32,884 bases of DNA from Candidatus Woesebacteria bacterium GW2011_GWB1_33_22 (GTDB taxonomy: Bacteria > Patescibacteriota > Microgenomatia > UBA8517): the NCBI GenBank assembly GCA_000989765.1, contig LBOW01000008.1:1-32884 (forward strand), written 5' to 3'. The notes beneath the pieces are model-generated. The model did no database searches, was not told where the DNA came from, and saw nothing but the letters and a program-made list of their open reading frames with translations. A program made the translations under genes and the position numbers. This document shows, one piece after another, positions 2 to 32,884 of this stretch (positions within the stretch are counted from its first letter, which is position 1; the number at the start of each line of letters is the position of its first letter).

Positions 2-3000
2 GGAGCCATTGATACAGGGGCAGATGCAATTGTCACCACAGGAACTATTGGGAGCGCTGGACTGACTGCTTTCACTGGCAATACTCTGGCCATTAACTCC
101 ATATCTTCAACAGGAGACATTTCCATAATTGCTACTGGAGGGAATGTAGGTATTGGGACAGCAACACCAACACAAACACTAACAGTCCTCGGTGACCTAG
201 CCTCATCTGTTGCCGTAGGTGTAGAAGGGTTAAAATTAACAGATACAACTGATGTAACCAAGATGGCCATGAAGTGGACAAGTTCTGGAATTAATATGGA
301 CATCCCAGGCCTAGCAACAACCAACAAACTAACCAATGGAACTTTTGAAACAGACATTACAACAGGAGGTTGGAACCAATATACCTTAAATGACCAGTTT
401 ACTACAGATAGATCAGCAGGAGCAGTCAATGGCACTTCTGCAGAACCAACTGGTGGAACAAGGACAGTGGTGGATACCAATTCCAAATTATCAATTTCCA
501 GTTCTCAATTATCATTTGCAACGGGAGGGAGTGCGGCGGGAAACCCAGGATTGTCATACCCAATAATTACAAGAGGGGCAGGAAAAATATTGGTTGGAAA
601 AATAAACATATCCACCGTGCAAGCAGCATTTGGTTGGGGTACAGACGCGAGTAGTTACATTGAAGATAGCTTTACATTTACAGATAGCCTTTATGCCCGT
701 GTTAATCAAAATACTGTAACTTTGGGAAGTTTTTCCACTGGCACTGATTACTATATGGCAATAATTATGCGAACAACTGGATACTATTGGTACATTAAGG
801 GAGGAGCATTCACCAATTGGACATTGATGCATATTGATTCAACAATCACAGGGAATAAATACCCCAGGATAATAACAGAAAATACCACCTCCGTCTTTAC
901 TGCTGACAACATCCGTATCCCTACCTCTTTATGGTTGCCAACACCATTATCATATGACACATTCACGAGAGGAGACGGAGCGATTGGCAGTAGTGAGACA
1001 ACAGGTCCAGACTCCCAGACTACTCCCTCCCTTGCTTGGACAGGTGGAGCAATATCTTCTAATAAAAATGTGATTACACCAAGTTTGGGGAGTGAGCTGT
1101 GGGATGCTGATGCGGCAGCATTTACATCAGGAACATATGCGTGGACGGCTTACGGAACAAATACCATAGAAAATGATGCAAATTCTCTAAAAATAACTTA
1201 TGTTGATAATCAGGCAGGGGCATTAGAATACTTGAAAAATAGTAGTGACTTGTCAGCCGATATGACAACAGGCTTATGGTACACTCTAAATCTCAATACC
1301 AAAGTCAATGCGGGAACATCTGTTAGGATTGGTGTAAATGACGGAATTTCTTTACAATATGGTCGTAACGAAACCGCAACAACCTTTACGCCATATGTAA
1401 CAACATTTAGAGCGAGACAATCTAGTAGTGCCTATATGGTTCTCAATGGCATGGGGACGGGAGAAATTTTTTGGATAGATGATTTATCAGTCAAACCCCT
1501 CACCCTTTCCTCCCTCTTCTCCTCTGTCTCAACTTCTGATGCGGATGTGATTGCAGATGCCAATGTCACTTTAACCGCTGGGACACAGGCAGGATTGGTG
1601 ACTAACCTTGATTCAACTTCAACACCAGCCAACTTCCTGATTGCCTACCATGATGGAACCAATGTCAAACTGGACAAGAATGTGGCAGGGACTTACACCA
1701 ACTTAATTAGTGCAGCCGCTACCTACTCTGCAGGGGCAACTCTACGAGTCATTACCTACACCTCATCTGGTTCTTTGAAAGTCAGAGTTTACTACAACAA
1801 TGCTTTGGTTGGGAGTGAACAGACGGTTTCCGATGCAGGGATAATCTCTAACACCAAACATGGGTTATTCTCTACCTATTCAGGTAACACTTTTGATAAC
1901 TTTACTTTGTGGGCCAGAGGAACAGGCAATGAGTATGTTAATCTGCCAGATACTGACTTAACAGCTACTCGTGATACTTCTGTTTACTACACTGGTTCTT
2001 CCTCCTTAAAGTTAGTAGCAGGAACTTCTGATAATGGCTATACCCAGGCCTACACTTTGCCAGATACCAGTAACTACACCCTATCTGCTTTTGTATATAC
2101 CAATGGAAGTGCTGTTACATCTTCTGACCTGTCTTTGGAAAATGGAGATGTTAATCTAACCACTACTTACACTTCTGTAGGTAATGGGTGGTATAAACTA
2201 TCTGCTAGTTTTACCGGAGTCACCTCTTCCCGTAACTATGGAGTCAAGGTTAAGGCAGGCAGAACTGTGTATGTTGATAATTTGTCTCTGTTTGCTTCCT
2301 CTGGTTCAGGAAATACTCTGGCTATTGGAAACTCAACCACAGGCCTGGGAGGGTTAAGTGTAGAAAGTACCACCACCCTCAATTCTGGTCTTGCCTCTTT
2401 ACAAGCTTTAATTGTCAAGGGTTTCTCAGGTCAAACAGCTAATTTACAGGAGTGGCAGGACTCAACAGGGACAGTCCTAGGGAGTATTTCTCCAACAGGA
2501 GCTTTAACTTCTGCAGGGAACTTAGATATTAATGGGACTGTCAATGATATGGCCGGAGCTTTAAATTTGTCAGGGAATTCTTTAACTTCCAGTGGTGCTT
2601 TAACCATAACTCCCTCGGCTGGAAATAACCTTAATATAGTTACTTCCGCAGGAGGGCAATTAGCAATTAACACTAACCAATTAGCAGTTGATAGTACAAC
2701 AGGAAGAACTGGAATAGGAACAATAGCTCCATCTGCAAAACTACACATTATTGCAACAACAGAACAACTCCGTCTGGGATATGACTCCAGTAATTACTGG
2801 AGTAACACAGTAGGAACAACCGGAGGCTTAACCATGCAGGGAGTAGGAACAGGAGGTTCTCTAACTCTCTCCCCTACCTCTGGACAAAACTTAAATATCT
2901 CTCTAGCAACAACCGGGGATATGGTAGTCAATACCAATGACTTAGTAGTAGATACTTCATTAGGTTACATTGGAATTAACACAACAGCTCCAACTGCCCT

Positions 3001-19915: not shown

Positions 19916-20128
19916 ATGCCAGATAGAATAGGACAGTCAAATTTTTTTAATGTATTCAGCAATGAATATTTTATAAATGTTGAGACTGGGGAAACAGTTC
20001 ATGGAAAAATACAGGTTCGTGTAGAAGAGCTTGATGGCAAACTGCTTAGAGTACAAGCAGGTCAACGTATACATTCTGTAGATGGCGATAAAATAGAAGA
20101 TTTTTTGAAAGTTGTTCGACAGGATTAA
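19916..20128 (+). CDS. Small conserved-looking protein of unknown function (70 aa)
   Basis: This soluble 70-residue protein is beta-rich (FINVETGETVHGKIQVRVEE, then LLRVQAGQRIHSVDGDKIEDF) with no signal peptide or transmembrane helix. It is likely real because it has its own extended -10 box at the usual leaderless spacing, fills a gap divergent from argS, and ends with a 4-nt convergent overlap with the comEC hydrolase gene. I do not recognise a family. Confidence 0.65.
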   Translation: MPDRIGQSNFFNVFSNEYFINVETGETVHGKIQVRVEELDGKLLRVQAGQRIHSVDGDKIEDFLKVVRQD

Positions 20129-20919
20129 TTTTTCACTTCATAATCAATATCCCCCATTTCATCAGTTCTTAAAATTTTGATATTTTTGTTTTTTAACATT
20201 TGAAGTATTTCTTGATGAGGGTGGCCGTAGCTATTTTTTGCACCAACACTAATTACTGCTACATCAGGATCAATTGCGTCAAGTAGTTTTTGACTCAAAC
20301 CGTTTTTAGAACCATGATGATTCACTTTGAGATAGTTGATGTTTTGTATTTCGCTGTAAACTGAAAGTTCGTCACTTACTGCATTCTCCACGTCTGCAGT
20401 AAACAACGCCTTAAATTGGCCATATTTAAGAAGCGTTACTATACCGTTGTCGTTTGTGTTTATATTTTGAATTTGGGCCGAAGGCCACAACATATCTAAA
20501 TATATCATTCCCACTCTAACTTTTACCCCTTTTGTCAATTTAATACGATTGGTTGGTATGTTTCTTAGCACTTGGTAGGACACATTGCTAGAATCACGAT
20601 TATACTCCCCAAATTTATCCACTTTGTAATTTTTAAAGACATTAATTAATCCCCCATAATGGTCTTCCTGTGGATGGGTTAAAATAACAAGTTCTATTTG
20701 TCTATCCCAAAACGGCATATACTTTCCAAGACAATCTAGGACTTTTTGGTTTGGTCCACCGTCAATTAAAACTTGAGTATTTGATTTTTGTATTAAAATT
20801 GCATCCCCTTGGCCCACATCACAAGCAATGATATGCAAATTATCATCAATTGTAAAAACTGCTATCCAAACAGCAATTGTTATTAAAACGAAAATATTTC
20901 TAAAACTTTTGTAAACCAT
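20125..20919 (-). CDS. comEC: ComEC metallo-beta-lactamase-like domain as a separate protein
   Basis: This is the C-terminal hydrolase half of ComEC/Rec2, thought to process DNA during natural uptake. One transmembrane helix (residues ~8-23) precedes the signature CDVGQGDAILI (33-43). Further motifs are the metal site THPQEDHYGG (81-90, with Gln84 where Asp is common in ComEC), FTADVE (173-178), VNHHGSKNG (199-207) and SVGAKNSYGHPH. The ATG at 20919 overlaps the end of the channel gene by 37 nt in another frame, so the two halves are separate genes read in an overlapping operon. Confidence 0.88.
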   Translation of the reverse strand: MVYKSFRNIFVLITIAVWIAVFTIDDNLHIIACDVGQGDAILIQKSNTQVLIDGGPNQKVLDCLGKYMPFWDRQIELVILTHPQEDHYGGLINVFKNYKVDKFGEYNRDSSNVSYQVLRNIPTNRIKLTKGVKVRVGMIYLDMLWPSAQIQNINTNDNGIVTLLKYGQFKALFTADVENAVSDELSVYSEIQNINYLKVNHHGSKNGLSQKLLDAIDPDVAVISVGAKNSYGHPHQEILQMLKNKNIKILRTDEMGDIDYEVKN

Positions 20920-21950
20920 AATAATAATGGAAATAATATAAATAGTATCAATCTACCAACTAGTGGTACAACTAATCCTACAATTCCACCGATTGCCCCA
21001 AAGATCATGATATAGGGAACGGTCCACAAAATTAAAGCATTAATAATAGGCGACAATATATTAAACTGTCCAAAGGTAGCGTAAATGATTGGCGCGACCC
21101 CTATTTGAGCTGCAAGTGAAGTTGATAATCCTTCTCTTAATATGTTTGGTACAAATTTAAGTTTGCTATCAATTCTTTTTTGAAACAACATTAATGACAT
21201 TGTAGCTACAAACGACAAAATAAAGCCCAGATCTGTTATCCAAATAGGCTTAATTAAAAGCATTATTCCGGCTGAATAAATTAACAGTCGCCATGAATTA
21301 ACCAATCTTCCCTTTTCTTGGCCTAATAATAATATACTTCCCATTATCCCCGCTCTTATAATTGGTGCGTCAAAGCCTGAAATTACTACATAGCCCAAAA
21401 TTCCAACGAGTGTAATCCAAATTGCCAGTCTTCTTTTAAAAAAGTAGGTTAAGACAGCAATTAAAAAACTTGCAGTCATTGTTACATTTGTGCCTGAAGC
21501 AACGACTACATGAGCAGTTCCTGTTTTTTTTAACCTCTCCCAAAAATTTTCTGGCATATTTTTTGAACCAATTGTAATTCCTGCCACAAGACTAGAATAT
21601 GGTTCAGGCAAGCTGGCTTTGTAAAAAGAAATTAATTTAAGTCTAAGATTAAACAAGATATTTTTATCTTCTGTTTCAAGTTTTTCAAGCTTTGGGTTTA
21701 CCAGTTTTCCGTTTTCAACTTTACCTGTCACCTGTACCCTATCCCCATATATCACCTCGGGGTATTTTGGTAGATACATTTTAAGTCCTTGAAGTTTTAA
21801 ATATTGTTGCCTGTCGTAAATTATTGGTTCTGAATAAACTCTTGAAGTAATCCTTATATTATCACCATTTTCGTAAACCGGACGGGTCGAAAAATATCTT
21901 ACAAAAATAAGTGAAATTAGAATAAATATACTAATAGACAGAAATTTCAT
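20883..21950 (-). CDS. comEC: ComEC competence (channel) domain as a separate protein
   Basis: This is the membrane half of the ComEC/Rec2 DNA-uptake channel. An N-terminal helix is followed by an OB-like region (YGDRVQVTGKVENGKL), and then the competence domain begins at LPEPYSSLVAGITIGSKNMP. The characteristic GTAHVVVASGTNVTM (normally G.x.H..AiSG.h) and FDAPIIRAGIMGSILLL are present. About nine hydrophobic helices follow, ending LLLWFTKVLEIFSF. The hydrolase half is encoded by the next, overlapping gene. The 5' end overlaps comEA by 20 nt. Confidence 0.88.
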   Translation of the reverse strand: MKFLSISIFILISLIFVRYFSTRPVYENGDNIRITSRVYSEPIIYDRQQYLKLQGLKMYLPKYPEVIYGDRVQVTGKVENGKLVNPKLEKLETEDKNILFNLRLKLISFYKASLPEPYSSLVAGITIGSKNMPENFWERLKKTGTAHVVVASGTNVTMTASFLIAVLTYFFKRRLAIWITLVGILGYVVISGFDAPIIRAGIMGSILLLGQEKGRLVNSWRLLIYSAGIMLLIKPIWITDLGFILSFVATMSLMLFQKRIDSKLKFVPNILREGLSTSLAAQIGVAPIIYATFGQFNILSPIINALILWTVPYIMIFGAIGGIVGLVVPLVGRLILFILFPLLLWFTKVLEIFSF

Positions 21951-22563
21951 TTTTTATTTTTTCCAAAGTTTTTTGACTAATTGCTCCTTTTGACACCAAC
22001 TCTTCAACATTTGAGTAAGGTCTTTGTTCAATGATCTTTTGGGCGTAAACAGGGCCAATTCCAACCAAACTTTCCAGTTCTTTTTGACTTGCAGTATTAA
22101 TATTGACTAAAATTACGGGTTCCGAACCTGTAACGTTTAAAACCTCCTGATCTGGTTTGATACCCCCACTATTTTTAGCACTTTGGACCTCCGATTGCGA
22201 ATAGATGTAAATCTTTTGCCCGTCAGAAAGTTTTGCAGCTCTATTGACATTTTTATTAACCCAGTCCCTATCAGCATTTATAGAAAGTCCTCCAGAAACT
22301 ATTAAAAGATCATCAACTCTTGAGTTAGTTGGTAATTTATAAACAGCGGGTTTTTCAACACTTCCAGAAATTTCTACTATTAAGTCCTGAGAACTCTCAG
22401 GACCTGACTTAGTCGTTTCTAAAACTTCAACTTTGTCACCAGTTGAAAAGATGTTAGTTTTAAAAGAAAGTACCCCAAAACCTACTAAAATAAGTCCTAA
22501 AAGGCTATATAACAAAGTTGACGAGTTTATTAGGAATAAAAATTTCTTTTTTAATTTTTCCAC
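21931..22563 (-). CDS. comEA: ComEA-like DNA-binding competence protein (SLBB + helix-hairpin-helix)
   Basis: An N-terminal transmembrane helix (~residues 15-33) anchors an extracytoplasmic protein. An SLBB-type domain (DLIVEISGSVEKPAVYKL, then VDDLLIVSGGL and DGQKIYI) follows, and then the double helix-hairpin-helix (VNINTASQKELESLVGIGP, YAQKIIEQRP). This is the usual ComEA layout for binding incoming double-stranded DNA. Two linkers are encoded by palindromes: SGPESSQD between membrane helix and SLBB, and VTGSEPVI just before the HhH domain. The gene overlaps leuS by 59 nt at its start and comEC by 20 nt at its end, which indicates translational coupling in a leuS-comEA-comEC operon. Confidence 0.9.
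   Translation of the reverse strand: MEKLKKKFLFLINSSTLLYSLLGLILVGFGVLSFKTNIFSTGDKVEVLETTKSGPESSQDLIVEISGSVEKPAVYKLPTNSRVDDLLIVSGGLSINADRDWVNKNVNRAAKLSDGQKIYIYSQSEVQSAKNSGGIKPDQEVLNVTGSEPVILVNINTASQKELESLVGIGPVYAQKIIEQRPYSNVEELVSKGAISQKTLEKIKNEISVY
22112..22134. repeat. Intragenic palindrome, family 1, in comEA
   Basis: The arms ATTACGGGTTC and GAACCTGTAAC surround one C and pair fully if two G-U pairs are allowed. On the minus strand it encodes VTGSEPVI; the sigma factor copy encodes ITGSEPVI. Confidence 0.85.
22384..22403. repeat. Intragenic inverted repeat in comEA linker
   Basis: The arms GTCCTGAG and CTCAGGAC (8 bp, perfect) flank AACT. It encodes GPESSQD in the linker after the membrane helix. 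Confidence 0.7.
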
Positions 22564-24424
22564 TCTTTAACCATTTTGACGCTTTTATGTCTTCTTTTGC
22601 AAGTTTTAATATTTTTGTTTTATCTGAAGACTGTAGACTATCGACCACAAGCTGTGAGCGCAACTTTCCATTAACTTGAACCACAACTATCACTTCGTCA
22701 GATTTTAAGTACTTTTCATCATAAATAGGCCATGGTGAGATGTGGATTGAATTCTTTTGACCTAGTACCTCATGCCAAATTTCCTCGGTCATATAGGGTG
22801 CAAAGGGGGCAAGAAGTTGGCATAGAACTGTTAATAGTCTACGGTCGACAGCTTTTTCTGCAGTAGACTGTAAGCTATAGTCTATAAGCATATTTACAAA
22901 TTCCATTAAACTTGAAATAGCAGTATTAAACTTGTAATTTTCAATATCTTCCCCTACTTTTTTAATTGTTTGATGCATTTTGGAAACAACTTCGTTGTTT
23001 GGTGATTGGTGATTGGTGATTGGTGATTGGTGGAATAACCTCCATACTCTACCTAAAAATCTATGAGCTCCTTCAACTCCTGTAAGGCTCCACGGCTTCA
23101 TAATATCAAATGGCCCCATAAACATCTCATAGACTCTCAAAGTATCAGCCCCAAACTTTGGAATAATATCATCAGGTGTAACCACATTTCCCCACCTTTT
23201 ACTCATCTTTCTAGAGTCTGGTCCTAAGATCCAACCAGGAGCACGGAGCTTCAAAAACGGTTCATCTCCCCATTTTTTATTAATATAGCCTGTATCATAT
23301 AATACTTTCCAAAAAAATCTGGCAAATAATAAATGTTGGACAACATGTCCACCACCCACATAATCATCAACAGGAATAATTTTATCTTTACTTGCAAATT
23401 CTTTACTATTCTTTGGATCACAAAACCTTAGAAAGTACCATGATGAGTCAACATAAGTATCCATTGTGTCAACTTCTCGTCTAGCTGGCTTTCCACAACT
23501 AGGACAAACTACATCTTTCTGAAAACTAGTAGATCGTGCGATCGGCGATTCACCATGAGGTAAAAAATCAACATCAGTTGGCAAAAGTACAGGTAACTCA
23601 CTTTCAGGAACAGGAAACCACCCAGATTGCAAGGTCTGACCTTGCAATTTTGCACAATGTTCACAGAAAACCATGGGGATTGGACAACCCCAGTATCTTT
23701 GTCTTGAAATCAACCAATCATGAATATGATAAGTAATTTCTTTCTTAACTTTTTTTCTCCCTATCCAATTCTTTTGTTGAATTTTAACTTCTTCTAACCA
23801 ATCAATACCATCCAAACCAGATATTAATCTATCAGCATAATCTGTAATTTTAAAAAACCACTGATCAAGGTCTTTTTTAATAACAGGTGTATCACACCTT
23901 TCACACTTTCCATCTTCCACTTGCTCATTGGCTAGGACTGTTTCATCTTTAGGGCACCAATTTACAGGAGATTTCTTTTTATAAGCCAAGCCTTTCTCAA
24001 AAAACTTTATAAACAACCACTGTGTCCATTTATAAAACTTAGGACTACTTGTATCAATTTCTTTATCCCAATCGTACGACAAACCTGAAGCAATTAATTG
24101 TTTTTTAAAAACTTTTATATTTTTATGAGTTTCCTTATCAGGGTGAACACCAGTTTTAATTGCAAAGTTTTCTGCAGGAAGCCCAAAAGCATCCCAACCC
24201 ATTGGATGCAAAATATCAAAACCCTTCATTCTTAAATACCTACTTATAATGTCAGTTCCAACATAGCCTTCTAAATGTCCAACATGCATTGAGGCTCCAG
24301 ATGGGTAAGGAAACATGTCTAAAACATATCTTTTTTTACCGTTTGAGGCGCTAGTTTTGTAAATTTCATCTTCTTTCCATTTTGCTTGCCACTTCTTTTC
24401 AATCTTCTTGTGATCATATTGCAT
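22505..24424 (-). CDS. leuS: Leucyl-tRNA synthetase lacking the CP1 editing domain
   Basis: This class I synthetase charges tRNA-Leu. HIGH-type HVGH (47-50) is in FPYPSGASMHVGHLEGY, zinc-type Cys pairs occur at CPKD...CERC and CEHC...CPSC, and the KMSKS loop reads SRKMSKRWGN (405-412). At 639 aa it is some 160-220 residues shorter than usual. The whole editing domain normally inserted between NWIGxSEG and RDWLxSRQRYWG is missing: NWIGR (219-223) is followed by only 14 residues before WLISRQRYWG. TTRPDT-type and GTGAVMxxPAHD-type motifs are absent. A LQGQTLQ insertion (~260-266) is encoded by a palindrome, and HQSPITNHQSPN (~465-476) by heptamer repeats. A TAGAAT box ends 9 nt before the ATG. 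Confidence 0.95.
   Translation of the reverse strand: MQYDHKKIEKKWQAKWKEDEIYKTSASNGKKRYVLDMFPYPSGASMHVGHLEGYVGTDIISRYLRMKGFDILHPMGWDAFGLPAENFAIKTGVHPDKETHKNIKVFKKQLIASGLSYDWDKEIDTSSPKFYKWTQWLFIKFFEKGLAYKKKSPVNWCPKDETVLANEQVEDGKCERCDTPVIKKDLDQWFFKITDYADRLISGLDGIDWLEEVKIQQKNWIGRKKVKKEITYHIHDWLISRQRYWGCPIPMVFCEHCAKLQGQTLQSGWFPVPESELPVLLPTDVDFLPHGESPIARSTSFQKDVVCPSCGKPARREVDTMDTYVDSSWYFLRFCDPKNSKEFASKDKIIPVDDYVGGGHVVQHLLFARFFWKVLYDTGYINKKWGDEPFLKLRAPGWILGPDSRKMSKRWGNVVTPDDIIPKFGADTLRVYEMFMGPFDIMKPWSLTGVEGAHRFLGRVWRLFHQSPITNHQSPNNEVVSKMHQTIKKVGEDIENYKFNTAISSLMEFVNMLIDYSLQSTAEKAVDRRLLTVLCQLLAPFAPYMTEEIWHEVLGQKNSIHISPWPIYDEKYLKSDEVIVVVQVNGKLRSQLVVDSLQSSDKTKILKLAKEDIKASKWLKSGKIKKEIFIPNKLVNFVI
22628..22655. 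repeat. Degenerate heptanucleotide repeat in leuS 3' part
   Basis: The units AGACTGT, AGACTAT, CGACCAC and AAGCTGT are in tandem. They encode part of QLVVDSLQSSD near the C-terminus. Confidence 0.6.
22864..22891. repeat. Heptanucleotide repeat in leuS
   Basis: The units TAGACTG, TAAGCTA, TAGTCTA and TAAGCAT are in tandem. They encode part of MLIDYSLQST. Confidence 0.65.
23001..23028. repeat. Heptanucleotide tandem repeat (GGTGATT x4) in leuS
   Basis: Four perfect tandem GGTGATT units are followed by GGTGG. On the minus strand they encode HQSPITNHQSPN, between the catalytic and anticodon-binding regions of LeuRS. Confidence 0.92.
23626..23648. repeat. Palindrome, family 2, inside leuS
   Basis: The arms ATTGCAAGGT and ACCTTGCAAT (10 bp, perfect) flank CTG. 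On the minus strand it encodes KLQGQTLQ, an apparent insertion in the zinc-binding region between CEHC and FPVPESELPVLLP. The intergenic copy at 14577-14597 has the same pattern. Confidence 0.85.
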
Positions 24425-24465: not shown

Positions 24466-24792
24466 ATGCTTTACATCTTAGCTCTAATTATTATTCTATA
24501 TACTTCTTCACATTTTCTATTTAGAAAAAAAGAAACCTATTTAAAGGTTCGAAAATATATTGATATAGCAACAATTTTAGTTACTTCTATTTTAGTTATA
24601 GCTTGGGTTGAAGTTTTTAAATTATCTTTTTTAATAATAATTTATTTTTTTACATCCCTTGGGATGATGAGTTATCTCATATATCGTTTGAGAAAAACAG
24701 AAATTAAGAAGCTTAAGGCAGAAGAAGTTATAAAAACATTAAAAACAGAAGAAAAAGTACTAGAAAATGAAATTGAATCACTGCAAAAATGA
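24466..24792 (+). CDS. Small integral membrane protein with coiled-coil tail
   Basis: This 108-residue protein has three hydrophobic helices (about residues 1-17, 33-51 and 53-75) followed by a charged helical tail (RKTEIKKLKAEEVIKTLK, then EEKVLENEIESLQK) likely to form a coiled coil in the cytoplasm. It opens a plus-strand operon of surface proteins, and its TGA stop overlaps the ATG of the next gene (ATGA). No family is recognised; a role in assembling or anchoring the exported proteins downstream is only a guess from position. Confidence 0.7.
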   Translation: MLYILALIIILYTSSHFLFRKKETYLKVRKYIDIATILVTSILVIAWVEVFKLSFLIIIYFFTSLGMMSYLIYRLRKTEIKKLKAEEVIKTLKTEEKVLENEIESLQK

Positions 24793-25499
24793 AATGGCTA
24801 TTTATTGTTTTTAGTTTTTTATATTTAGTTCCTGTTTGTTATGCCCAAGAACGAATAGAATCTAGTAATTACAGGATACAATTTCCCAATTTAAATTCTG
24901 GCGCTGGGATTCCCTCATCTTCTAATTACAAGCTTGATTCTACCGTCGGCCAGGGAGTTGCAGGAAAATTTACCTCAGCAGGATATATTGCAAAAGCAGG
25001 ATTTCAATATATTCATTCTATTATCCCGTTTTCCTTCTCAATTGATGATTTACAAATTAATTTTGGAACTCTAACTCCTAATTCCCCATCCACTGATACT
25101 TCCACATTGACAGTATCCGCCGGTGGCGCAGGAGGCTATTCGGTTAAAGTTTCTGAAAACTTTCCTTTAAATACCTCAGACGGTGGGGATACTATAATTG
25201 ATACGTTATGTGACACAACCTGTTCTGAGACATCTGCTACTGTGTGGTCATCAGCATCAAAGTATGGCTTTGGATTTAATATGAGTGGAGATGATATCCC
25301 CGCCGATTTTACAGATGCTACTTACTTTAGACAGTTTGCAGATCGAAGTTCTGCAGAGACAGAAAAAACGATAATGACCTCTGGCAATGTCGGTACAAGT
25401 AGAACAGCAACTATTAGCTATAAAATAAATGTAAGTAGTGTTCAACCAGCAGGAGTATATAGAAATGTACTAACATTTACTGCAATTCCAAGTTATTAA
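24789..25499 (+). CDS. Secreted beta-rich surface protein (WxL-like partner, copy 1)
   Basis: A Sec-type signal peptide (MKWLFIVFSFLYLVPVCYA, probable cleavage before QE) is followed by ~217 residues of strand-rich sequence. Features are SSNYRIQFPNLNSGAGIPSS, SSNYKLDSTVGQGVAG, two Cys in DTLCDTTCSET, and a C-terminal TISYKINVSSVQPAGVYRN then TFTAIPSY. The end resembles the last strand of the protein at 26391 (TQPAGYYYNKIKYTAVPTF), so the two share a terminal domain. It has no membrane anchor of its own. Its neighbours are DUF916-like membrane proteins, as in WxL operons of Gram-positives, though a true WxL motif is not seen. Confidence 0.75.
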   Translation: MKWLFIVFSFLYLVPVCYAQERIESSNYRIQFPNLNSGAGIPSSSNYKLDSTVGQGVAGKFTSAGYIAKAGFQYIHSIIPFSFSIDDLQINFGTLTPNSPSTDTSTLTVSAGGAGGYSVKVSENFPLNTSDGGDTIIDTLCDTTCSETSATVWSSASKYGFGFNMSGDDIPADFTDATYFRQFADRSSAETEKTIMTSGNVGTSRTATISYKINVSSVQPAGVYRNVLTFTAIPSY

Positions 25500-25500
25500 G

Positions 25501-26412
25501 ATGATAGGTTATAGGTTACAGGTTACAGGTGATAGATTAAAACTAATTTTGGTTAGTGTTTTGTTTTTCCTATTCACTATTACCTGTATCCTATTACCTA
25601 GAAAGATTTATGCGCAAGCAATAAATCTTTCCATTAGCCCTCCTCTTTTTGAACTCATGATTCAACCCAATAAACAAGTCAAACAGATATTTACTATAAC
25701 AAATTTAGGAGGTGATAGTATCATAACTCCAAGCCTAGTTTATTTTGAACCCTCCGATGAAACTGGCAATGTTAATCTAACTGAAAATCAAGTCGCGGAT
25801 TGGGTTATTTATAATCAATCTCCATTTAATTTAAAGGGTCAAGAAAAATTTGATTTTGAAGTTTTGTTTTCTCCCCCATCTGACACAGAAGAAATTGATC
25901 ATTTATTAACTTTAGTTTTTGAGACTAATGAGCCTGTTGATCTGTTAGGACAAAATTCAGCAACTTACACCTCAAGAATTGGAGCAAATATATTACTTAC
26001 AATTTCCAAAGATGGTAGCCCAAAAAAATCAGCAGAAATTATAGAATTTTCAGCGCCAAAAATCATTGATTCTCTATACCCTATACGCTATGCACTTAAA
26101 TTGGCTAATAATGGCAATTCGTTCTGGAAGCCAAGTGGCAAAATTACTACCAAAGATGAAGTTTTAACTTTAGCTCCTCAAAATATCCTTTCAGGTTATT
26201 CACGAAACATAAATTGTATCGACAATGAAACACTAATTAACTGCAAGCTTAAAAAGAAGTTTAGTATTGGTAAAATAGTATCAAAATTAGAATTTACTAT
26301 CGATGAGGAAGCAAAAGTTTATACGCTTGAAACTATAACCTATTCCTTACCCTTGACATATTTAAGTCTAATTGTAGTATTATTATTAGTATGGCGAAAA
26401 GTAAAGCGTTAA
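25501..26412 (+). CDS. Membrane-anchored surface protein, DUF916-like (copy 1)
   Basis: A signal peptide follows an unusual N-terminus, MIGYRLQVTGDRLK, encoded by heptamer repeats; the hydrophobic core is LILVSVLFFLFTITCILL and cleavage is probably after IYAQA. The mature part starts INLSISPPLFELMIQPNKQV with an Ig-like fold (IFTITNLGGDSI, VADWVIYNQSPFNL). A C-terminal helix (LPLTYLSLIVVLLLVWR) and a basic tail anchor it. The layout (N-terminal peptidoglycan-binding DUF916-type domain, C-terminal TM) resembles WxL-interacting proteins. It starts 1 nt after the preceding stop and overlaps the next gene by 22 nt. Confidence 0.72.
   Translation: MIGYRLQVTGDRLKLILVSVLFFLFTITCILLPRKIYAQAINLSISPPLFELMIQPNKQVKQIFTITNLGGDSIITPSLVYFEPSDETGNVNLTENQVADWVIYNQSPFNLKGQEKFDFEVLFSPPSDTEEIDHLLTLVFETNEPVDLLGQNSATYTSRIGANILLTISKDGSPKKSAEIIEFSAPKIIDSLYPIRYALKLANNGNSFWKPSGKITTKDEVLTLAPQNILSGYSRNINCIDNETLINCKLKKKFSIGKIVSKLEFTIDEEAKVYTLETITYSLPLTYLSLIVVLLLVWRKVKR
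25504..25538. repeat. Heptanucleotide tandem repeat at the start of a signal-peptide gene
   Basis: Five tandem units read ATAGGTT, ATAGGTT, ACAGGTT, ACAGGTG and ATAGATT, beginning right at the start codon. They encode the residues IGYRLQVTGDRL. Confidence 0.9.
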
Positions 26413-27896
26413 TTATACCGTTAGTTATAGCTATTATAGCTTTAGGTTTTTATTTTGTTTATCCTAGCAAAAAACTTTATTCAGCCAATTTTACTTCAGC
26501 CTCAGCAACCTTATCAAATGCCAGATTTTCATATAAAGCAGGTGTTGCTTCAGGTACAACTGGCACCTCAGTTGTTAATATCGATACCTCAGCTAATGCT
26601 GATAATGACACGGATCATTTATTTCCTAAGGATGTTATTTGTATTTCAAATGCAACAGAAGATGGCTGTACAGGAAGCACAACCTATACAGTAGCCAACA
26701 TTGTAGATACTGATACATTTAACACAACAGCTGCACTTGGTGCAACGCTTCTTGCAACTGATTATGTTGTTGCTACACAATCAGGAAGCTTAACAATTTC
26801 TTTTACCACAGCAACTGAGGTTCCAATCGGCGGAACTCTTTTAATTACAATTCCTGCAGTTGTAAGTGGTGCCGGAAATGCAAATGACGGAATTCCAGAT
26901 ACAGCTGCAACTACTGCGGATAATGGTTTTGATTTATCAACTATTGCCACAGGTGACGTCACAGTGTCAGATATAACAGGTTGTACCTCAGCTGGATGGG
27001 GGTCAGCAACAGTAACGGCTGGAAACGGTACAGCAACAGATCATACAATATCATTCACTAGAGCCGGAGCAACTTGCGCCCCCAATAAGGCCATAACAGT
27101 GACGATTGATAGTGCGCCAGGTATTATTAATCCGGCACCAATTACTTCTCATACTCAAGGTCAAGCAGATGCATATCAAATAAATATTAAAACAAGAGAT
27201 GGTGGCACTAACGTACTTGACCAGTCCGATGTCACGGTTGCACCTGTTGAAGGTGTATTAATCTCTGCCACTGTTGATGAAACACTTTCTTTTACTGTTG
27301 CAGGTATAACTACTGATTCTGGTTCATATTGTGGAGTGACAAGAACGGCTAGTTCCCCAGATACAACAGCCATGTCAGTTCCTTGGGGAAGCCTTTCGCC
27401 AACCTATTCGGCAGCAACACACAACACAAACCATCAATTAACTGTTTCGACAAACGCAACTGGAGGATATAAAGTTTATGCTGAAGAAAATGACCAAATG
27501 GGTAAAGACGGAGTTGCTTGTACTGGGGCAGCAGCTGGAGAATCGGTTGACTGTATTCAAGATACTGCCTGTGGAGCTACTCCTTGCACACATGTAACCG
27601 CAAGAGATTGGGGTGCAGATCCATCAAGCTATCCTGGACTTGGTTATTCACTTGAAGATACATCAGGAACAGATGCTTATTTTGAATTCGACGATAGTGG
27701 TACATTTTACGCTAAGCAATTTGCAGATCAAGAAGCCGTAGAAGTAAGGTCGGATGCTGGAGCTGAATTAATGAGTAATGCAGGCCCAGTTTCAGGATCA
27801 GCTGCTTACGTATGTTATAGAATTGATATCACAGGTACACAACCAGCTGGATATTACTATAATAAAATAAAGTATACTGCAGTACCTACCTTCTGA
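26391..27896 (+). CDS. Secreted/anchored beta-rich surface protein (WxL-like partner, copy 2)
   Basis: An N-terminal hydrophobic segment (ALIIPLVIAIIALGFYFVY) acts as signal peptide or anchor. The ~470-residue remainder is Thr/Ser/Ala-rich and strand-rich with several Cys (ICISNATEDGCTG, CTSAGWG, VACTGAAAGESVDCIQDTAC), unusual for the AT-rich Cys-poor proteins nearby and possibly disulphide-bonded. The C-terminal section (HQLTVSTNATGGYKVYAEEN, then ITGTQPAGYYYNKIKYTAVP) is shared with the protein at 24789. It overlaps the preceding gene by 22 nt. A 7-bp stem-loop surrounds its stop codon. Confidence 0.75.
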   Translation: MAKSKALIIPLVIAIIALGFYFVYPSKKLYSANFTSASATLSNARFSYKAGVASGTTGTSVVNIDTSANADNDTDHLFPKDVICISNATEDGCTGSTTYTVANIVDTDTFNTTAALGATLLATDYVVATQSGSLTISFTTATEVPIGGTLLITIPAVVSGAGNANDGIPDTAATTADNGFDLSTIATGDVTVSDITGCTSAGWGSATVTAGNGTATDHTISFTRAGATCAPNKAITVTIDSAPGIINPAPITSHTQGQADAYQINIKTRDGGTNVLDQSDVTVAPVEGVLISATVDETLSFTVAGITTDSGSYCGVTRTASSPDTTAMSVPWGSLSPTYSAATHNTNHQLTVSTNATGGYKVYAEENDQMGKDGVACTGAAAGESVDCIQDTACGATPCTHVTARDWGADPSSYPGLGYSLEDTSGTDAYFEFDDSGTFYAKQFADQEAVEVRSDAGAELMSNAGPVSGSAAYVCYRIDITGTQPAGYYYNKIKYTAVPTF

Positions 27897-27905
27897 AAGA
27901 AGGTA
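27887..27905 (+). repeat. Stem-loop around a stop codon
   Basis: The arms TACCTTC and GAAGGTA (7 bp, perfect) flank TGAAA, whose TGA is the stop codon of the preceding gene. No T tract follows, so it is not a normal terminator; it may affect mRNA decay or coupling to the next gene. Confidence 0.5.
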
Positions 27906-27910
27906 AATCA

Positions 27911-27938
27911 AAAATTAATAGTTAAGAATTAATAATTA
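27911..27938. repeat. Heptanucleotide repeat upstream of a start codon
   Basis: The units AAAATTA, ATAGTTA, AGAATTA and ATAATTA end 2 nt before the ATG at 27941, where a ribosome binding site would normally lie. Confidence 0.75.
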
Positions 27939-27940
27939 AA

Positions 27941-28954
27941 ATGAAAACAGCTAAACAAAACAAAATAACCTTTTTTCCAGTATTTTTAGTTCTTGTAATT
28001 TCATTCTTAATTCTTAATTCTTCATTCTTAATTCAGGCGGTAAGCGCGCAAGCGCGCATTCCGCTTGTTGTTGCGCCAGCAAGACAAACTGTTGCTATAG
28101 ATCCAGGTAAGACTGCAGACCTACAAATTAAATTCTTCAATGAATCAGTAACAGCAGTTGCGGGCAATATTAAGGCTGTAGATTTTATTGTTACAGAAGA
28201 TTCAGGAGCACCTGTTCTTTTAGAAAACCAAGTTAACCCATGGGTAAAATTACCTTATGAAAAGGCTTCAATTGCTGCAGGTGATGTATTAAAAGTTAAT
28301 TTCAAAGTTAATATTCCAACAAATACGCAACCGGGCGGAAGATACGTTGCAATCATGTTTGAACAGACAGGACAAATTCCTGATACACAAACAAATGATG
28401 AGGGAGCATCTGCAATTTCATCTAGAATTGTTGGTCTTGTAAGTATTAGAATTAATGGTCCTGTTTATGAATCAGCTTTTGTAGATATATTTAAAACCCC
28501 TAGCTTTTTGGAATTTGGACCAATCCCTGTTTATTTTGAAATATTAAATAAAGGCGGATATCACATCACTCCAGTTGGACAATTAACACTTACAAACTGG
28601 TTTGGGCAAGAGGTAGAAAAGAAAACAATTGATAGTAAAAACATTTTCCCAGATGCAAGAAGAAACTATGATACCAAGATTGGTAAGACATGGATGTTTG
28701 GTAGATATCTTCTTAATTTTACCGCTAGTTATGGCGACCAAGGAAAAACTATAACAATGTCTAAATTTATTTGGGTAGTTCCTGTAACCCTGATCTTGGT
28801 TATAATCCTAGGTATAATTATAGCCATACTCTCAACTGTCTTAATAATTAAAAGGTTTAAAGTAAAACAAGTCAAATTAGAAGAAAAATTAGAAGAGGAA
28901 ATTACAGAACTTGAGTCTTTAAAAAATAAATTCAAAGACAAGCTACCTAAATAA
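27941..28954 (+). CDS. Membrane-anchored surface protein, DUF916-like (copy 2)
   Basis: A signal peptide (hydrophobic core FFPVFLVLVISFLILNSSFL, cleavage near AVSAQA) is followed by RIPLVVAPARQTVAIDPGKT, then LQIKFFNESVTAVAGNIKAV, and NPWVKLPYEKASIAAGDVLK, a layout typical of DUF916-type Ig-like domains. A second beta domain (FEILNKGGYHITPVGQLTL) leads to a C-terminal transmembrane helix (VPVTLILVIILGIIIAILSTVLII) and a cytoplasmic coiled-coil tail (KLEEKLEEEITELESLKNKF). Part of its signal peptide is encoded by ATTCTTA repeats. Its 3' end overlaps the convergent Ig-like gene by 12 nt. Confidence 0.78.
   Translation: MKTAKQNKITFFPVFLVLVISFLILNSSFLIQAVSAQARIPLVVAPARQTVAIDPGKTADLQIKFFNESVTAVAGNIKAVDFIVTEDSGAPVLLENQVNPWVKLPYEKASIAAGDVLKVNFKVNIPTNTQPGGRYVAIMFEQTGQIPDTQTNDEGASAISSRIVGLVSIRINGPVYESAFVDIFKTPSFLEFGPIPVYFEILNKGGYHITPVGQLTLTNWFGQEVEKKTIDSKNIFPDARRNYDTKIGKTWMFGRYLLNFTASYGDQGKTITMSKFIWVVPVTLILVIILGIIIAILSTVLIIKRFKVKQVKLEEKLEEEITELESLKNKFKDKLPK
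28003..28037. repeat. Heptanucleotide tandem repeat inside signal-peptide codons
   Basis: The units ATTCTTA, ATTCTTA, ATTCTTC, ATTCTTA and ATTCAGG encode the hydrophobic core FLILNSSFLIQA. The same ATTCTTA unit recurs at 30401-30435. Confidence 0.88.
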
Positions 28955-29665
28955 TTTAGATTTTACTCTTGTAGGCTCTTTTAAGACCAGTATCCCCAGG
29001 ATCATGATAATGACAAGCTCTAATATAATCAAAGAGCTTAATTTATGCCTTAAAAGAAATTCTTTTAAGTCAAAAAATGAAGATTTAGCAGGTGAAATAA
29101 CAGAAAAAGTTAAGGTTGTGCTTTTGGCTGTAGGATTCTCCCCCGCTTTGGAAGTAGCAAAAATTCTATAGACTGATGTGTCGGCTGTTGGTAGAGAAAA
29201 CTCAAATAATCCCTCATTATTTGATTTGATTTGATATTTTGGCAGGTAATAGATGTTACCTGCCATAAAAACATCAACTGGAGAATTAGGTATGGTAATG
29301 CCCGATACAAAACCAGTATCACCTGTCAACAAATAATTTTCACTTAAGGAAATTGTAGGAGAAATTAAAACTGGCCCAACCTTTGCCGGAACCAAACTAC
29401 TGTTTGGCAGGGCAGGTATACACACGGGTTGAGACAATCTATTAAAACTGTCTTTTGCTTGCAAACAAAGTTCGGGATAGAAAAATGAATAAGAGTAAAC
29501 CTCATCGAATTCAAAATAGCCGTCTTTATTGGCTGTTGTTCTTTCAGATATACCAACACCCGAAAGGTAAATTTCAGATTCACTTGGACCATATCCATAG
29601 AGAATTAATGATGGCTTTCCAATAGTTAGATAAACTTTAACGGCAGATGTCGATATAATAGACAT
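28943..29665 (-). CDS. Membrane-anchored Ig-like/carboxypeptidase-regulatory-like surface protein
   Basis: This 240-residue protein has two beta-sandwich-like repeats, SLILYGYGPSESEIYLSGVG...TTANKDGYFEFDEVYSY and FVSGITIPNSPVDVFMAGN...IKSNNEGLFEFSLP. Each has the DGxFxF pattern of carboxypeptidase-regulatory or filament-like Ig domains. A C-terminal helix (LIILELVIIMILGILVL) with a basic tail (KEPTRVKSKLFR) anchors it. No N-terminal signal peptide is obvious with this start, which is odd for a surface protein. It starts 5 nt after the stop of the upstream Ig-like gene, so it is probably co-transcribed with it. Confidence 0.7.
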   Translation of the reverse strand: MSIISTSAVKVYLTIGKPSLILYGYGPSESEIYLSGVGISERTTANKDGYFEFDEVYSYSFFYPELCLQAKDSFNRLSQPVCIPALPNSSLVPAKVGPVLISPTISLSENYLLTGDTGFVSGITIPNSPVDVFMAGNIYYLPKYQIKSNNEGLFEFSLPTADTSVYRIFATSKAGENPTAKSTTLTFSVISPAKSSFFDLKEFLLRHKLSSLIILELVIIMILGILVLKEPTRVKSKLFR

Positions 29666-29670
29666 TTATT

Positions 29671-30075
29671 TCAATCAAATATAATTTTTACCTTCTGAGG
29701 CAATACCAGACCATCAACTTCTGCTTCCAGAGAATAAGCTCCCATAATATTGGATCTAAGATCAAAAATGGCCTTGCCCACTCCGTCAGTTAATGGTTGA
29801 ATCTCTGTTATGTTTAAATTTGTATCACCTTTCAATATAATTTTTTTACCTTCTATGCCTAAGCCTCTTTCATCTAAGATAAAAATAGTAATTCGAATTA
29901 AATCACCCCCAGCTGTTGCTCTTACGGGAGATGCAAAAATATAAGAATTAGAAACAGATACACTAGCTAAATTAGGTCCTTTAGCGTTTGGAACTACAGA
30001 AGTCTTGTTTCTAATAAAGATTAGAGATATAATTAAAATTAGTATTAATATTAAAATTACAAAGATAGCTCTCAT
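29671..30075 (-). CDS. Membrane-anchored protein with one bacterial Ig-like (Big_1-type) domain
   Basis: The frame is open to 30111, but the start MRAIFVI at 30075 puts the transmembrane helix (AIFVILILILILIISLIFI) at the N-terminus, and a TATATT box lies 6 nt upstream. The ~100-residue outer part reads VRATAGGDLIRITIFILDER, then GIEGKKIILKG, DGVGKAIFDLRS and YSLEAEVDGLVLPQKVKIIF. This matches the strand order of invasin-type Ig domains (T.G...I.i.v.D..G.pv.g..V.). It heads a two-gene minus-strand operon of surface proteins; function unknown. Confidence 0.72.
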   Translation of the reverse strand: MRAIFVILILILILIISLIFIRNKTSVVPNAKGPNLASVSVSNSYIFASPVRATAGGDLIRITIFILDERGLGIEGKKIILKGDTNLNITEIQPLTDGVGKAIFDLRSNIMGAYSLEAEVDGLVLPQKVKIIFD

Positions 30076-30400
30076 TAATATAATATACTCCAATAATAAG
30101 GCCCAAAACAAGTCTAATTACTGTCTATCACTTATATTGCCTAACTGCTAATTTTATATAAATCCCAGTTCTAAATAATTACAAAAAAAATGGTATATTA
30201 AACGATAGCTAAATAAAAATAAACAAACACTAATAAATATCTCCGCAGTTTTCCGCAAGTTTAACAAATTTTATATGTAGGCTCATAAAATATAAACCTA
30301 TAATAATTATTATTACATTTATATGTATAATATATTATGCTATATGATATATTTATGTCTATAAAATTAGGTGCGGTAATTAAATTATTTACGGTGTGAA

Positions 30401-30517: not shown

Positions 30518-32884
30518 ATGCGGAAAATGATAGAAGATTTTTTAAAGTATTTAAGTTTACACGGAGTCTCTCCTAAATCCTTGAAATACTACAAATCTGA
30601 TCTTCTCAATTTTTTAACTTGGGCAAACGGAAAGAAAGTAAGCCAAAATTTAATTAATGAATATGTTGAAACAATTAGATTAATTACACCAACTTCTACC
30701 CTAAAAAGAAGACTTTCAACACTTCGTAGTTATAGTTCTTTTTTGGGTATTAAAAAAATAACAGTAACTTGGCAGGAAAATATATTACAACGTTTCACCA
30801 ATAAACCTAAATTACACGAGATATTATACAAACTATTCTTTAATAGACCAAATTGGTACAAAAAATATCATTCGTACCCTATTGCAAATTATATTCATAT
30901 TGCTATTCTAGTTATATTCTCAAGCCTTTCTGCTTATGCCTTATATGACCAGGTATTTAGACAAGCAGACGATCTTTCAGCTTTCCCAACTGCATTAACA
31001 AGACCTAATAGATATTTAAGTTTCCAAGGAAGACTAACTAGTAATCTTGGAAATCCAATTACTATCGCTACAGATGTTGTTTTTAAGCTTCATACAGCTT
31101 CATCTGGAGGAAGTGAACTTTGGAATTCTGGTACATGTTCAATAACTCCCGATTCTGATGGAATTTTTTCTACACTTCTTGGTTCTTCTTGTGGAGCTGA
31201 AATTGCATCATCAGTATTTTCTGAAAACGCCGGGGTCTGGGCCAGTGTAACAATTGCAGCAGATGCAGAGGCAACCCCAAGAATTCAAATTGCAACAGTA
31301 GCTTACGCCTTAAATGCGGAAACATTACAAGGTTTTCCTGCTGGAACAGGAACATCAACAATTCCTTACCTTAACTCAAGCGGTGAAGTTGTAATTGCAG
31401 CAGCTTCGCCAAAATTACAATCTACTTCAGGAACTTTTTCTGTCGAAGGAGTTGCACTAACCATAACCACTCCAAATGCATCAAACGGTGTCATTACCGT
31501 TAATCCAGACGGTACAGGAACCTTAAATTTAACTTTTGAAGGTCTGGCGGCTGGAGGTTCAGTAAATGGCTTTGTAAATGCCGTAAATGCAAACATTACA
31601 TCAGGTGCTTTATATGGTGGTACCGTTGCTTCAGCCGCAACTGGCTATAATTTTATAGATTTTCAAAGTGGTGTTTCCCCCACTTCCAAATTCTCAGTAA
31701 ATAATGCTGGAGACATTACTACAGCTGGAGACTTGCTTCTTTCGGGAGGAAACTTAAACACTGGAAATATTGCTTTAGTGATTGGCGATGCAACAACTGA
31801 CACATTAACTTTGACTACAGATGGAACAGGTAATGGAGAGGTGGTTTTACCTAATGATTCTATAAGTCCAAATGAAATCATGTCAACAGATCAGACCGAT
31901 GAATACTGTCTCACTTATGAGGCTACTGGAGCAACTTGGGCTTGGCAAAGTTGTGGCGGGGGTACATGGTCATCTATAACAGCTCCAACCACTGATCTAA
32001 CTCTGACCATGGCTACATACAACACAACATTTAATTGGGATCCTGGGGCCGACTCTACAGAAACTAACTTTTCATTAACAACACAAGGTGAGGATACTGT
32101 AGCTGGAGGAGAAGTAGACCAGACTCTTTTAGCTCTTTCTCAAACTAGTAATGGGGCCGATGTTGATCAAGCAGCAGATTCCCTACTAACTTTAACTAAT
32201 AATGATACTAATGATCCAGTTACTTCTGCAATTAGGTTTGATGCTGGAGCTGCTGGAACAGATTTTACGTATGGTATTAATTTTGACGCTGCTGATATTG
32301 GCACTGCAGAAATTATTTTAGAAAATGCAGAAACAATAGATAATCAAACAGATGGAACAGTTGCCATAACTGCTGCAACCACTTCCCTTTCAGGTAATTT
32401 AAAATTATCTGGTGGAAATATCCTAAATTCAGTAGGAACAGCAACTGTTGTCCTTTCATCTGCTCCCACAACAACTGCCAACACTTTATCAGCAGGAAAC
32501 TGGATGGTAGATAATACCGCCAATGTTGGCCAGGCTGCTTTAATTGTTAATCAACAAAAGGCAGGAGATTTATTTACTGCAACTTCTTCAGCTACAACCA
32601 AATTTACAATTGAAAATGATGGAGATGTAAACATGGTTGGTGATATAACAGTTGGTGGCGGAAATATAAATACAGGTAACATTGCCTTTGTAATTGGAGA
32701 TGCAACAACAGATGGAATAACTTTTACAACAGATGGAACAGGAAATGGAGAATATACTTTCTCGGCAGATGGAATTGGAGATGTTGATCTTGATTGGGGT
32801 ACTGGAGCGGGACAAATTGATGTTACTGATGTTGAAAATGGATCAGTAAACATACTTCTTGAAACTGAAATTGATGCCTCTAGC
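30518..32884 (+). CDS. Giant surface protein with N-terminal tyrosine-recombinase core-binding domain, 5' part (3' end outside window)
   Basis: The frame runs from ATG 30518 (alternative 30527) to the window end without a stop, giving 789 residues. Residues 1-~90 match the SAM-like N-terminal domain of XerC/XerD-type recombinases: MIEDFLKYLSLHGVSPKSLK, YYKSDLLNFLTWA and TLKRRLSTLRSYSSFLG. No catalytic R-HxxR-Y domain follows. Instead a transmembrane helix (~122-143, IANYIHIAILVIFSSLSAYAL) leads to RYLSFQGRLTSNLGNPIT, the start of a fibre-base domain ending RIQIATVAYALNAETLQGF. Then come Thr/Gly-rich fibre repeats (GDATTDGITFTTDGTGNGE, GDATTDTLTLTTDGTGNGE). The recombinase-like part would be cytoplasmic and the fibre outside. 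It shares style with the truncated gene at the left edge. Confidence 0.85.
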   Translation, partial: MRKMIEDFLKYLSLHGVSPKSLKYYKSDLLNFLTWANGKKVSQNLINEYVETIRLITPTSTLKRRLSTLRSYSSFLGIKKITVTWQENILQRFTNKPKLHEILYKLFFNRPNWYKKYHSYPIANYIHIAILVIFSSLSAYALYDQVFRQADDLSAFPTALTRPNRYLSFQGRLTSNLGNPITIATDVVFKLHTASSGGSELWNSGTCSITPDSDGIFSTLLGSSCGAEIASSVFSENAGVWASVTIAADAEATPRIQIATVAYALNAETLQGFPAGTGTSTIPYLNSSGEVVIAAASPKLQSTSGTFSVEGVALTITTPNASNGVITVNPDGTGTLNLTFEGLAAGGSVNGFVNAVNANITSGALYGGTVASAATGYNFIDFQSGVSPTSKFSVNNAGDITTAGDLLLSGGNLNTGNIALVIGDATTDTLTLTTDGTGNGEVVLPNDSISPNEIMSTDQTDEYCLTYEATGATWAWQSCGGGTWSSITAPTTDLTLTMATYNTTFNWDPGADSTETNFSLTTQGEDTVAGGEVDQTLLALSQTSNGADVDQAADSLLTLTNNDTNDPVTSAIRFDAGAAGTDFTYGINFDAADIGTAEIILENAETIDNQTDGTVAITAATTSLSGNLKLSGGNILNSVGTATVVLSSAPTTTANTLSAGNWMVDNTANVGQAALIVNQQKAGDLFTATSSATTKFTIENDGDVNMVGDITVGGGNINTGNIAFVIGDATTDGITFTTDGTGNGEYTFSADGIGDVDLDWGTGAGQIDVTDVENGSVNILLETEIDASS

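Follow-up and report, generated by a model that had tools for sequence, protein, structure and literature searches.

The window analysed here, a stretch of DNA of 32,884 nucleotides, is one entire contig (G000:C8) of an 860-kb genome, and the contig end cuts its last gene, which is left as an open frame of 789 codons on the forward strand (30518-32884, +; 789 aa). In relatives carrying a full-length copy the fibre gene encodes 1482 to 2581 residues. The protein begins with a tyrosine-recombinase core-binding (SAM-like) domain (residues 5-76; 30530-30745, +), continues with a conserved juxtamembrane segment that was recognised in the alignment and ends in RPNWYKKYHSY (30806-30877, +), and then crosses the membrane by a helix with its N-terminus inside (30881-30961, +). 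This helix is followed by a membrane-proximal beta-domain (RYLSFQGRLT...PRIQIATVAYALNAE; 31010-31333, +) and, judged from the letters themselves, by the start of a repetitive, beta-rich fibre shaft, which occupies the rest of the contig (31334-32884, +). In an AlphaFold2 model of the open frame (mean pLDDT 77) the first domain consists of four helices (2-14, 19-36, 43-53 and 59-76), followed by three short ones (85-119), by a long helix (121-148) that includes the hydrophobic transmembrane stretch at about 124-143, and by the beta-domain from residue 167. The core-binding domain ends near residue 80, and residues 80-120 form a separate juxtamembrane segment whose positive charge places it on the cytoplasmic side by the positive-inside rule. 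A cleavable signal peptide is absent before the transmembrane helix, the anchor being of type II. This order of parts, with a core-binding domain, a basic segment, a transmembrane helix and a fibre, is almost certainly correct.

The original prediction, made without database searches, held that the first ~90 residues follow the pattern of the XerC/XerD core-binding domain, and that a transmembrane helix and a large extracellular fibre stand where the catalytic domain would be expected. Both claims were borne out, with the domain ending nearer to residue 80. Residues 5-76 match the Pfam family Phage_int_SAM_1 (PF02899) at E=2.2e-10 and 41.1 bits, above the gathering score of 22.3; a search of the genome placed the domain at the same position, and it is only the N-terminal ends of the NCBIfam XerD and XerC models that match these same residues. 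A Foldseek search with the AlphaFold2 model led to the archaeal recombinase XerA (4a8e), with 78 columns aligned at 1.8 A rmsd and a probability of 1.00; the E-value of 0.04 is modest because the query carries two domains. When the PDB was searched with a profile of 14 family members, the integrase N-domain 3nrw (1.2e-5) and E. coli XerD (1a0p, 3.9e-5) were found, and the fold matches of a tandem/split model were likewise mainly tyrosine recombinases. No Phage_integrase catalytic domain (PF00589, with the RKHRH pentad and the tyrosine nucleophile) was found by Pfam in the 789-aa open frame, and in the model its place is taken by the transmembrane helix and the beta-domain. Thus, while the Xer recombinases (XerC, XerD, XerA and XerH; PF02899) share the four-helix core-binding domain with the window protein both by profile and by fold, the fibre proteins are without a catalytic domain or tyrosine nucleophile, pass into a transmembrane helix and a fibre instead, and in some members carry the core-binding domain in tandem or divided between two genes. 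Genomes of the Microgenomates class retain separate catalytic Xer recombinases, usually two each, and those of the window genome sit on contigs C2 and C3. Since these have been kept, the fibre domain is no stray recombinase.

Matches to the fibre protein were obtained in 43 of the 95 relatives searched, and the full N-terminal pattern extends to distant families of the class. GTDB genomes were then scanned with patterns from the fibre beta-domain and the hits confirmed with the whole query, which gave 80 named loci, almost all from Microgenomates-group CPR bacteria, with Woesebacteria, Roizmanbacteria, Gottesmanbacteria, Collierbacteria, Levybacteria, Shapirobacteria and Beckwithbacteria among them. 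As to how many CPR surface proteins share the fusion, a question that the original prediction had raised, the family HMM found at least one core-binding domain, either N-terminal or encoded by a same-strand gene upstream, in 79 of the 80 loci, a frequency biased by a ranking query that included the core-binding domain itself. The one remaining locus is truncated by its contig end. Approximately 22 of the 79 have a single domain, as in the window, 32 have two in tandem in one open frame (the second copy being degenerate in two of these), 24 are split and one has a broken frame. Two sequential core-binding domains are also present in RitA tyrosine recombinases (PMC8138268), resembling the tandem fibre roots, but RitA is described as a simple recombinase of a core-binding and a catalytic domain (PMC8138268), whereas the fibre proteins are membrane-anchored and lack the catalytic part. 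The suspicion that the fusion might be a misassembly between a recombinase gene and a surface gene could be set aside, as the same architecture is seen in a Woesebacteria gene 82% identical to that of the window (L046) and members of the family also lie on the complete chromosomes CP011214, CP055308, CP066686, CP066689 and CP011210. The core-binding-rooted fibre is therefore a class-wide architecture, neither an artefact of assembly nor a rarity, and the window gene is a reduced form of it, in which the first domain is kept with its basic helix-D residues and the second is lost. A viral origin of the fusion was also rejected, a single one of 2.9 million viral contigs having matched, in the beta-domain only. 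An open frame of 24,949 aa at one of the loci (L004) proved to be a 72-kb run of N.

The beta-domain that follows the membrane helix gave a match to the N-terminal domain of the MAT fibres of Bdellovibrio (NF053851), with E=0.002 in the window; several relatives reach 1e-6 to 1e-8, and none of these matches attains the curated cut-off of 60 bits. MATs (mosaic adhesive trimer) are the trimeric adhesins by which Bdellovibrio recognises its prey (PMC10769870). In these proteins the beta-domain, like its putative relative in the window, forms the foot of a long fibre immediately beyond the membrane (PMC10769870; NF053851, below cut-off), but there it is preceded by a signal peptide, where the window protein has the core-binding domain, the basic segment and the transmembrane helix. 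On this comparison the first beta-domain of the fibre appears to be distantly related to the N-terminal domain of MAT prey-recognition fibres. If the relation holds, the fibres are probably trimeric and hence multivalent, and each would have three copies of the domain inside the cell. Neither the fusion nor the split domain was described in the open-access literature searched, where absence is weak evidence; the core-binding domain and the MAT-like fibre were already known, and what is new is their combination and the split domain. A long repetitive fibre gene (2-5776, +; 1924 aa, open at its 5' end) also lies at the start of the window. It was considered as a candidate for the far end of the same fibre, but the relatives show no synteny there. 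Fibre repeats are found at both contig ends, and the contig breaks inside them. In the Shapirobacteria fibre gene at L060:3388-6006, N- and C-terminal splicing signatures of an intein were seen at residues of about 605-869.

The residues of the core-binding domain that could contact DNA were found on two helices. Helix B (30572-30625, +; AlphaFold2 helix 19-36) carries K23, Y25 and D28, at family columns 20, 22 and 25, and helix D (30692-30745, +; AlphaFold2 helix 59-76) carries R64, R65 and R70, at columns 70, 71 and 76, both sets being picked out by conservation. On a residue-by-residue alignment of our own, helix B would correspond to the helix of Cre in which K43 and M44 lie, and helix D to that with K86, Q90 and Q94. 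It was shown that the DNA-contact residues of Cre are in helices B and D (PMC6486577), and that the N-terminal four-helix bundle of XerH (PMC5241119) and the core-binding domain of the Tn1549 integrase (PMC5871717) enter the DNA major groove. Among the first domains of the family, K or R is present at column 20 in 94%, R at column 70 in 96%, R or K at column 71 in 71% and at column 76 in 86%. In these first domains K or R at columns 20, 70 and 76 is retained in all three architectures; column 71 varies among the tandem first domains (49% K/R). In the fibre family, helices B and D show more polar conservation than helices A and C (p=0.0009), where the polar positions drift, and the same bias is seen in XerC-type recombinases (p=2e-5) and is absent in the XerD type (p=0.5). 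The net charge of the fibre core-binding domain, +5.4, is within the range of Xer domains (+4.9 to +6.3), and the lysines and arginines of the juxtamembrane segment are also expected from the positive-inside rule alone.

Because the DNA-contact helices are conserved and the domain is positively charged, we favour the reading that the first domain tethers DNA beneath the attachment fibre, to which we assign a probability of about 0.5, a salt bridge discussed below accounting for part of the conservation. A captured tyrosine-recombinase core-binding domain would then form the intracellular root of a surface-attachment fibre. We infer with moderate confidence that this first domain would grip double-stranded DNA through helices B and D, and multivalent fibres might in this way hold the chromosome to the membrane under the attachment site. 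The main rival reading, less likely but quite conceivable, is that DNA binding has been lost and the fold is now reused purely for protein docking, linking the fibre with some partner in the cytosol or with its own copies. Such a role does not readily account for the lysines and arginines that the first domain keeps at columns 20, 70 and 76 whatever the architecture, or for polar conservation that tracks the DNA-contact helices as it does in XerC.

In the split loci the first gene (ORF1) encodes one whole domain together with helices A-B of the second, and the fibre gene, which starts with its own methionine, supplies helices C-D, the transmembrane helix and the fibre, so that the seam lies throughout in the loop that joins helix B to helix C. 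In about 33 split genomes all three frame relations between the two genes occur, with gaps of -59 to +697 nt, and in two Roizmanbacteria the halves are about 6.7 kb apart, with a large surface-protein gene among those intervening. These frames, gaps and distances exclude programmed readthrough or frameshifting as a general mechanism and likewise dispose of sequencing error as the cause of the splits, although such an error may explain the lone same-frame stop of one genome. A tree was computed for 82 members from the beta-domain together with the first domain, and on it split and fused forms interchange about 10 times (bootstrap range 9-11; 6 changes are forced by well-supported branches), and so many changes at one seam indicate that the genes were cut or rejoined there repeatedly, as expected if the halves cooperate in cis or in trans. 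When the TAA stop of a Shapirobacteria pair was ignored and the joined sequence modelled by AlphaFold2, the halves folded confidently as one domain; the pLDDT is 91 overall, and within the second domain mostly 94-98 with a dip to 82-84 around the seam.

Further evidence comes from two family columns, one in each half. An aspartate at column 25 (helix B) and an arginine at column 70 (helix D) are both found in XerC-type domains, and XerD-type domains have tyrosine at both. By sequence, this pair looks like a fold-stabilising salt bridge, and the conservation of arginine at column 70 is therefore no evidence of DNA contact. When these two residues were scored by eye in the sequences of 33 split pairs, both were kept in 26, the aspartate alone in 4, neither in 3 and the arginine alone in 0, a co-retention across separate genes with p=0.006, kinship being ignored. 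One of the two pairs separated by 6.7 kb has both residues and the other the aspartate only. It is very probable that the separately encoded halves associate and complete the second domain in trans, in which case the soluble ORF1 protein would be clipped to the fibre through completion of a shared fold. In the second domains of split loci column 76 is relaxed (K/R in 28%) but the salt-bridge residues are kept, and this copy may thus have lost DNA binding, which suggests a division of labour with a ligand for the first domain and a clip for the second. For protein docking these data are no obstacle. Relaxation at column 76 with the fold residues kept, and repeated fission and fusion within one domain, are what would be seen if the fold served as an assembly device with the split second domain as its docking clip, and they fit docking as well as DNA binding.

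If the first domain does tether DNA, the chromosome, perhaps at a specific site, might be held on the host-attachment fibre, in many lineages by way of a two-protein clip with one domain completed in trans; this extended scheme is put forward tentatively. Host attachment and the rooting of fibres in CPR cells are poorly known, and a class-wide fusion of a recombinase module with an attachment fibre provides a tangible and testable connection from nucleoid to cell surface. In addition, a second domain that has been repeatedly cut and rejoined shows split-domain complementation at work in nature, and could serve to study the breakage of genes within a fold that keeps its function.

The topology of the protein, a single pass with the N-terminus inside and the C-terminus outside, a domain of DNA-binding type in the cytosol and a sensor-like ectodomain, recalls regulators of the ToxR/CadC type, and it could be proposed that the fibre protein is a membrane-tethered one-component receptor in which host contact alters DNA binding and so regulates genes. 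We consider this unlikely, as the window domain is a recombinase core-binding fold and not the winged helix of ToxR and CadC, a giant fibre of several thousand residues would be an odd sensor, and no core-binding domain is known to act as a transcription factor. Highly improbable, in our opinion, is that the folded domain is an inert stop, conserved for folding alone, that keeps the N-terminus inside and resists the pulling out of the fibre. It is true that a related fibre of the same class (L026) manages with an ordinary signal-like N-terminus and no core-binding root, and that most occurrences of the beta-domain, common throughout the phylum, lack the fusion; nevertheless, a plug would not need two helices with conserved polar surfaces or two half-genes kept for the sake of one domain.

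Next to the fibre gene are a short membrane-anchored Big_1-like protein (29671-30111, -; Pfam Big_1 E=1e-5, below the gathering score), an Ig-like surface protein with a C-terminal transmembrane helix (28943-29665, -) and two secreted surface proteins (27941-28954 and 26391-27896, both +), of which fibre-adjacent homologues were found in 52, 43, 40 and 34 locus records, respectively, these counts being of locus records searched, in which some genomes are present twice. The protein at 26391-27896 has a weak similarity to the CPR Pam pilin (NF058581, E=0.009, below cut-off), and that at 24789-25499, though below cut-off, clearly resembles PamT, a protein of CPR pili (E=5e-17). The secreted proteins clustered at 24789-28954 (+) have relatives among the Pam pilus components of CPR bacteria, with a PamT-like protein and a Pam pilin-like C-terminus, and the cluster is conserved beside the fibre together with two membrane-anchored proteins. 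With regard to docking, no conserved gene that could encode a cytosolic partner was seen next to the fibre, the conserved neighbours resembling membrane or secreted proteins.

Leucyl-tRNA synthetase directly adjoins the fibre pair in several relatives, and the window copy lies at 22505-24424. Directly downstream of it are comEA and comEC (20125-22563, -), the latter as two overlapping open frames (20125-20919 and 20883-21950). A function in DNA uptake, one of the roles first suggested for the fusion, found no support, since comEC homologues lie near the fibre in only 4 relatives and a cytosolic binder of double-stranded DNA is ill-suited to the ComEC step. At three loci (L028, L029 and L030) tandem core-binding domains and a transmembrane helix occur in short open frames (400-441 aa) with no obvious long fibre, and the root module may serve other ectodomains there; the L029 and L030 copies adjoin leuS.

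The separate Xer recombinases of the window genome also have features of their own. In the XerD-type gene (G000:C2:74233-76446; L034:234-2447, -) a LAGLIDADG intein follows directly after the HGIRH, HxxR active-site motif. The XerC-type gene (G000:C3:39406-40272; L035:607-1473, +) has a degenerate HxxR motif, with VNDLRTT replacing HGLRHT, and its product may be catalytically weak. Chain 14 of PDB entry 9i5v, 401 aa long and named RaiA, matches a whole XerD-type recombinase over residues 20-282. This chain is apparently a recombinase-RaiA fusion, and should the entry prove to be a ribosome structure, the ribosome would bear a recombinase core.
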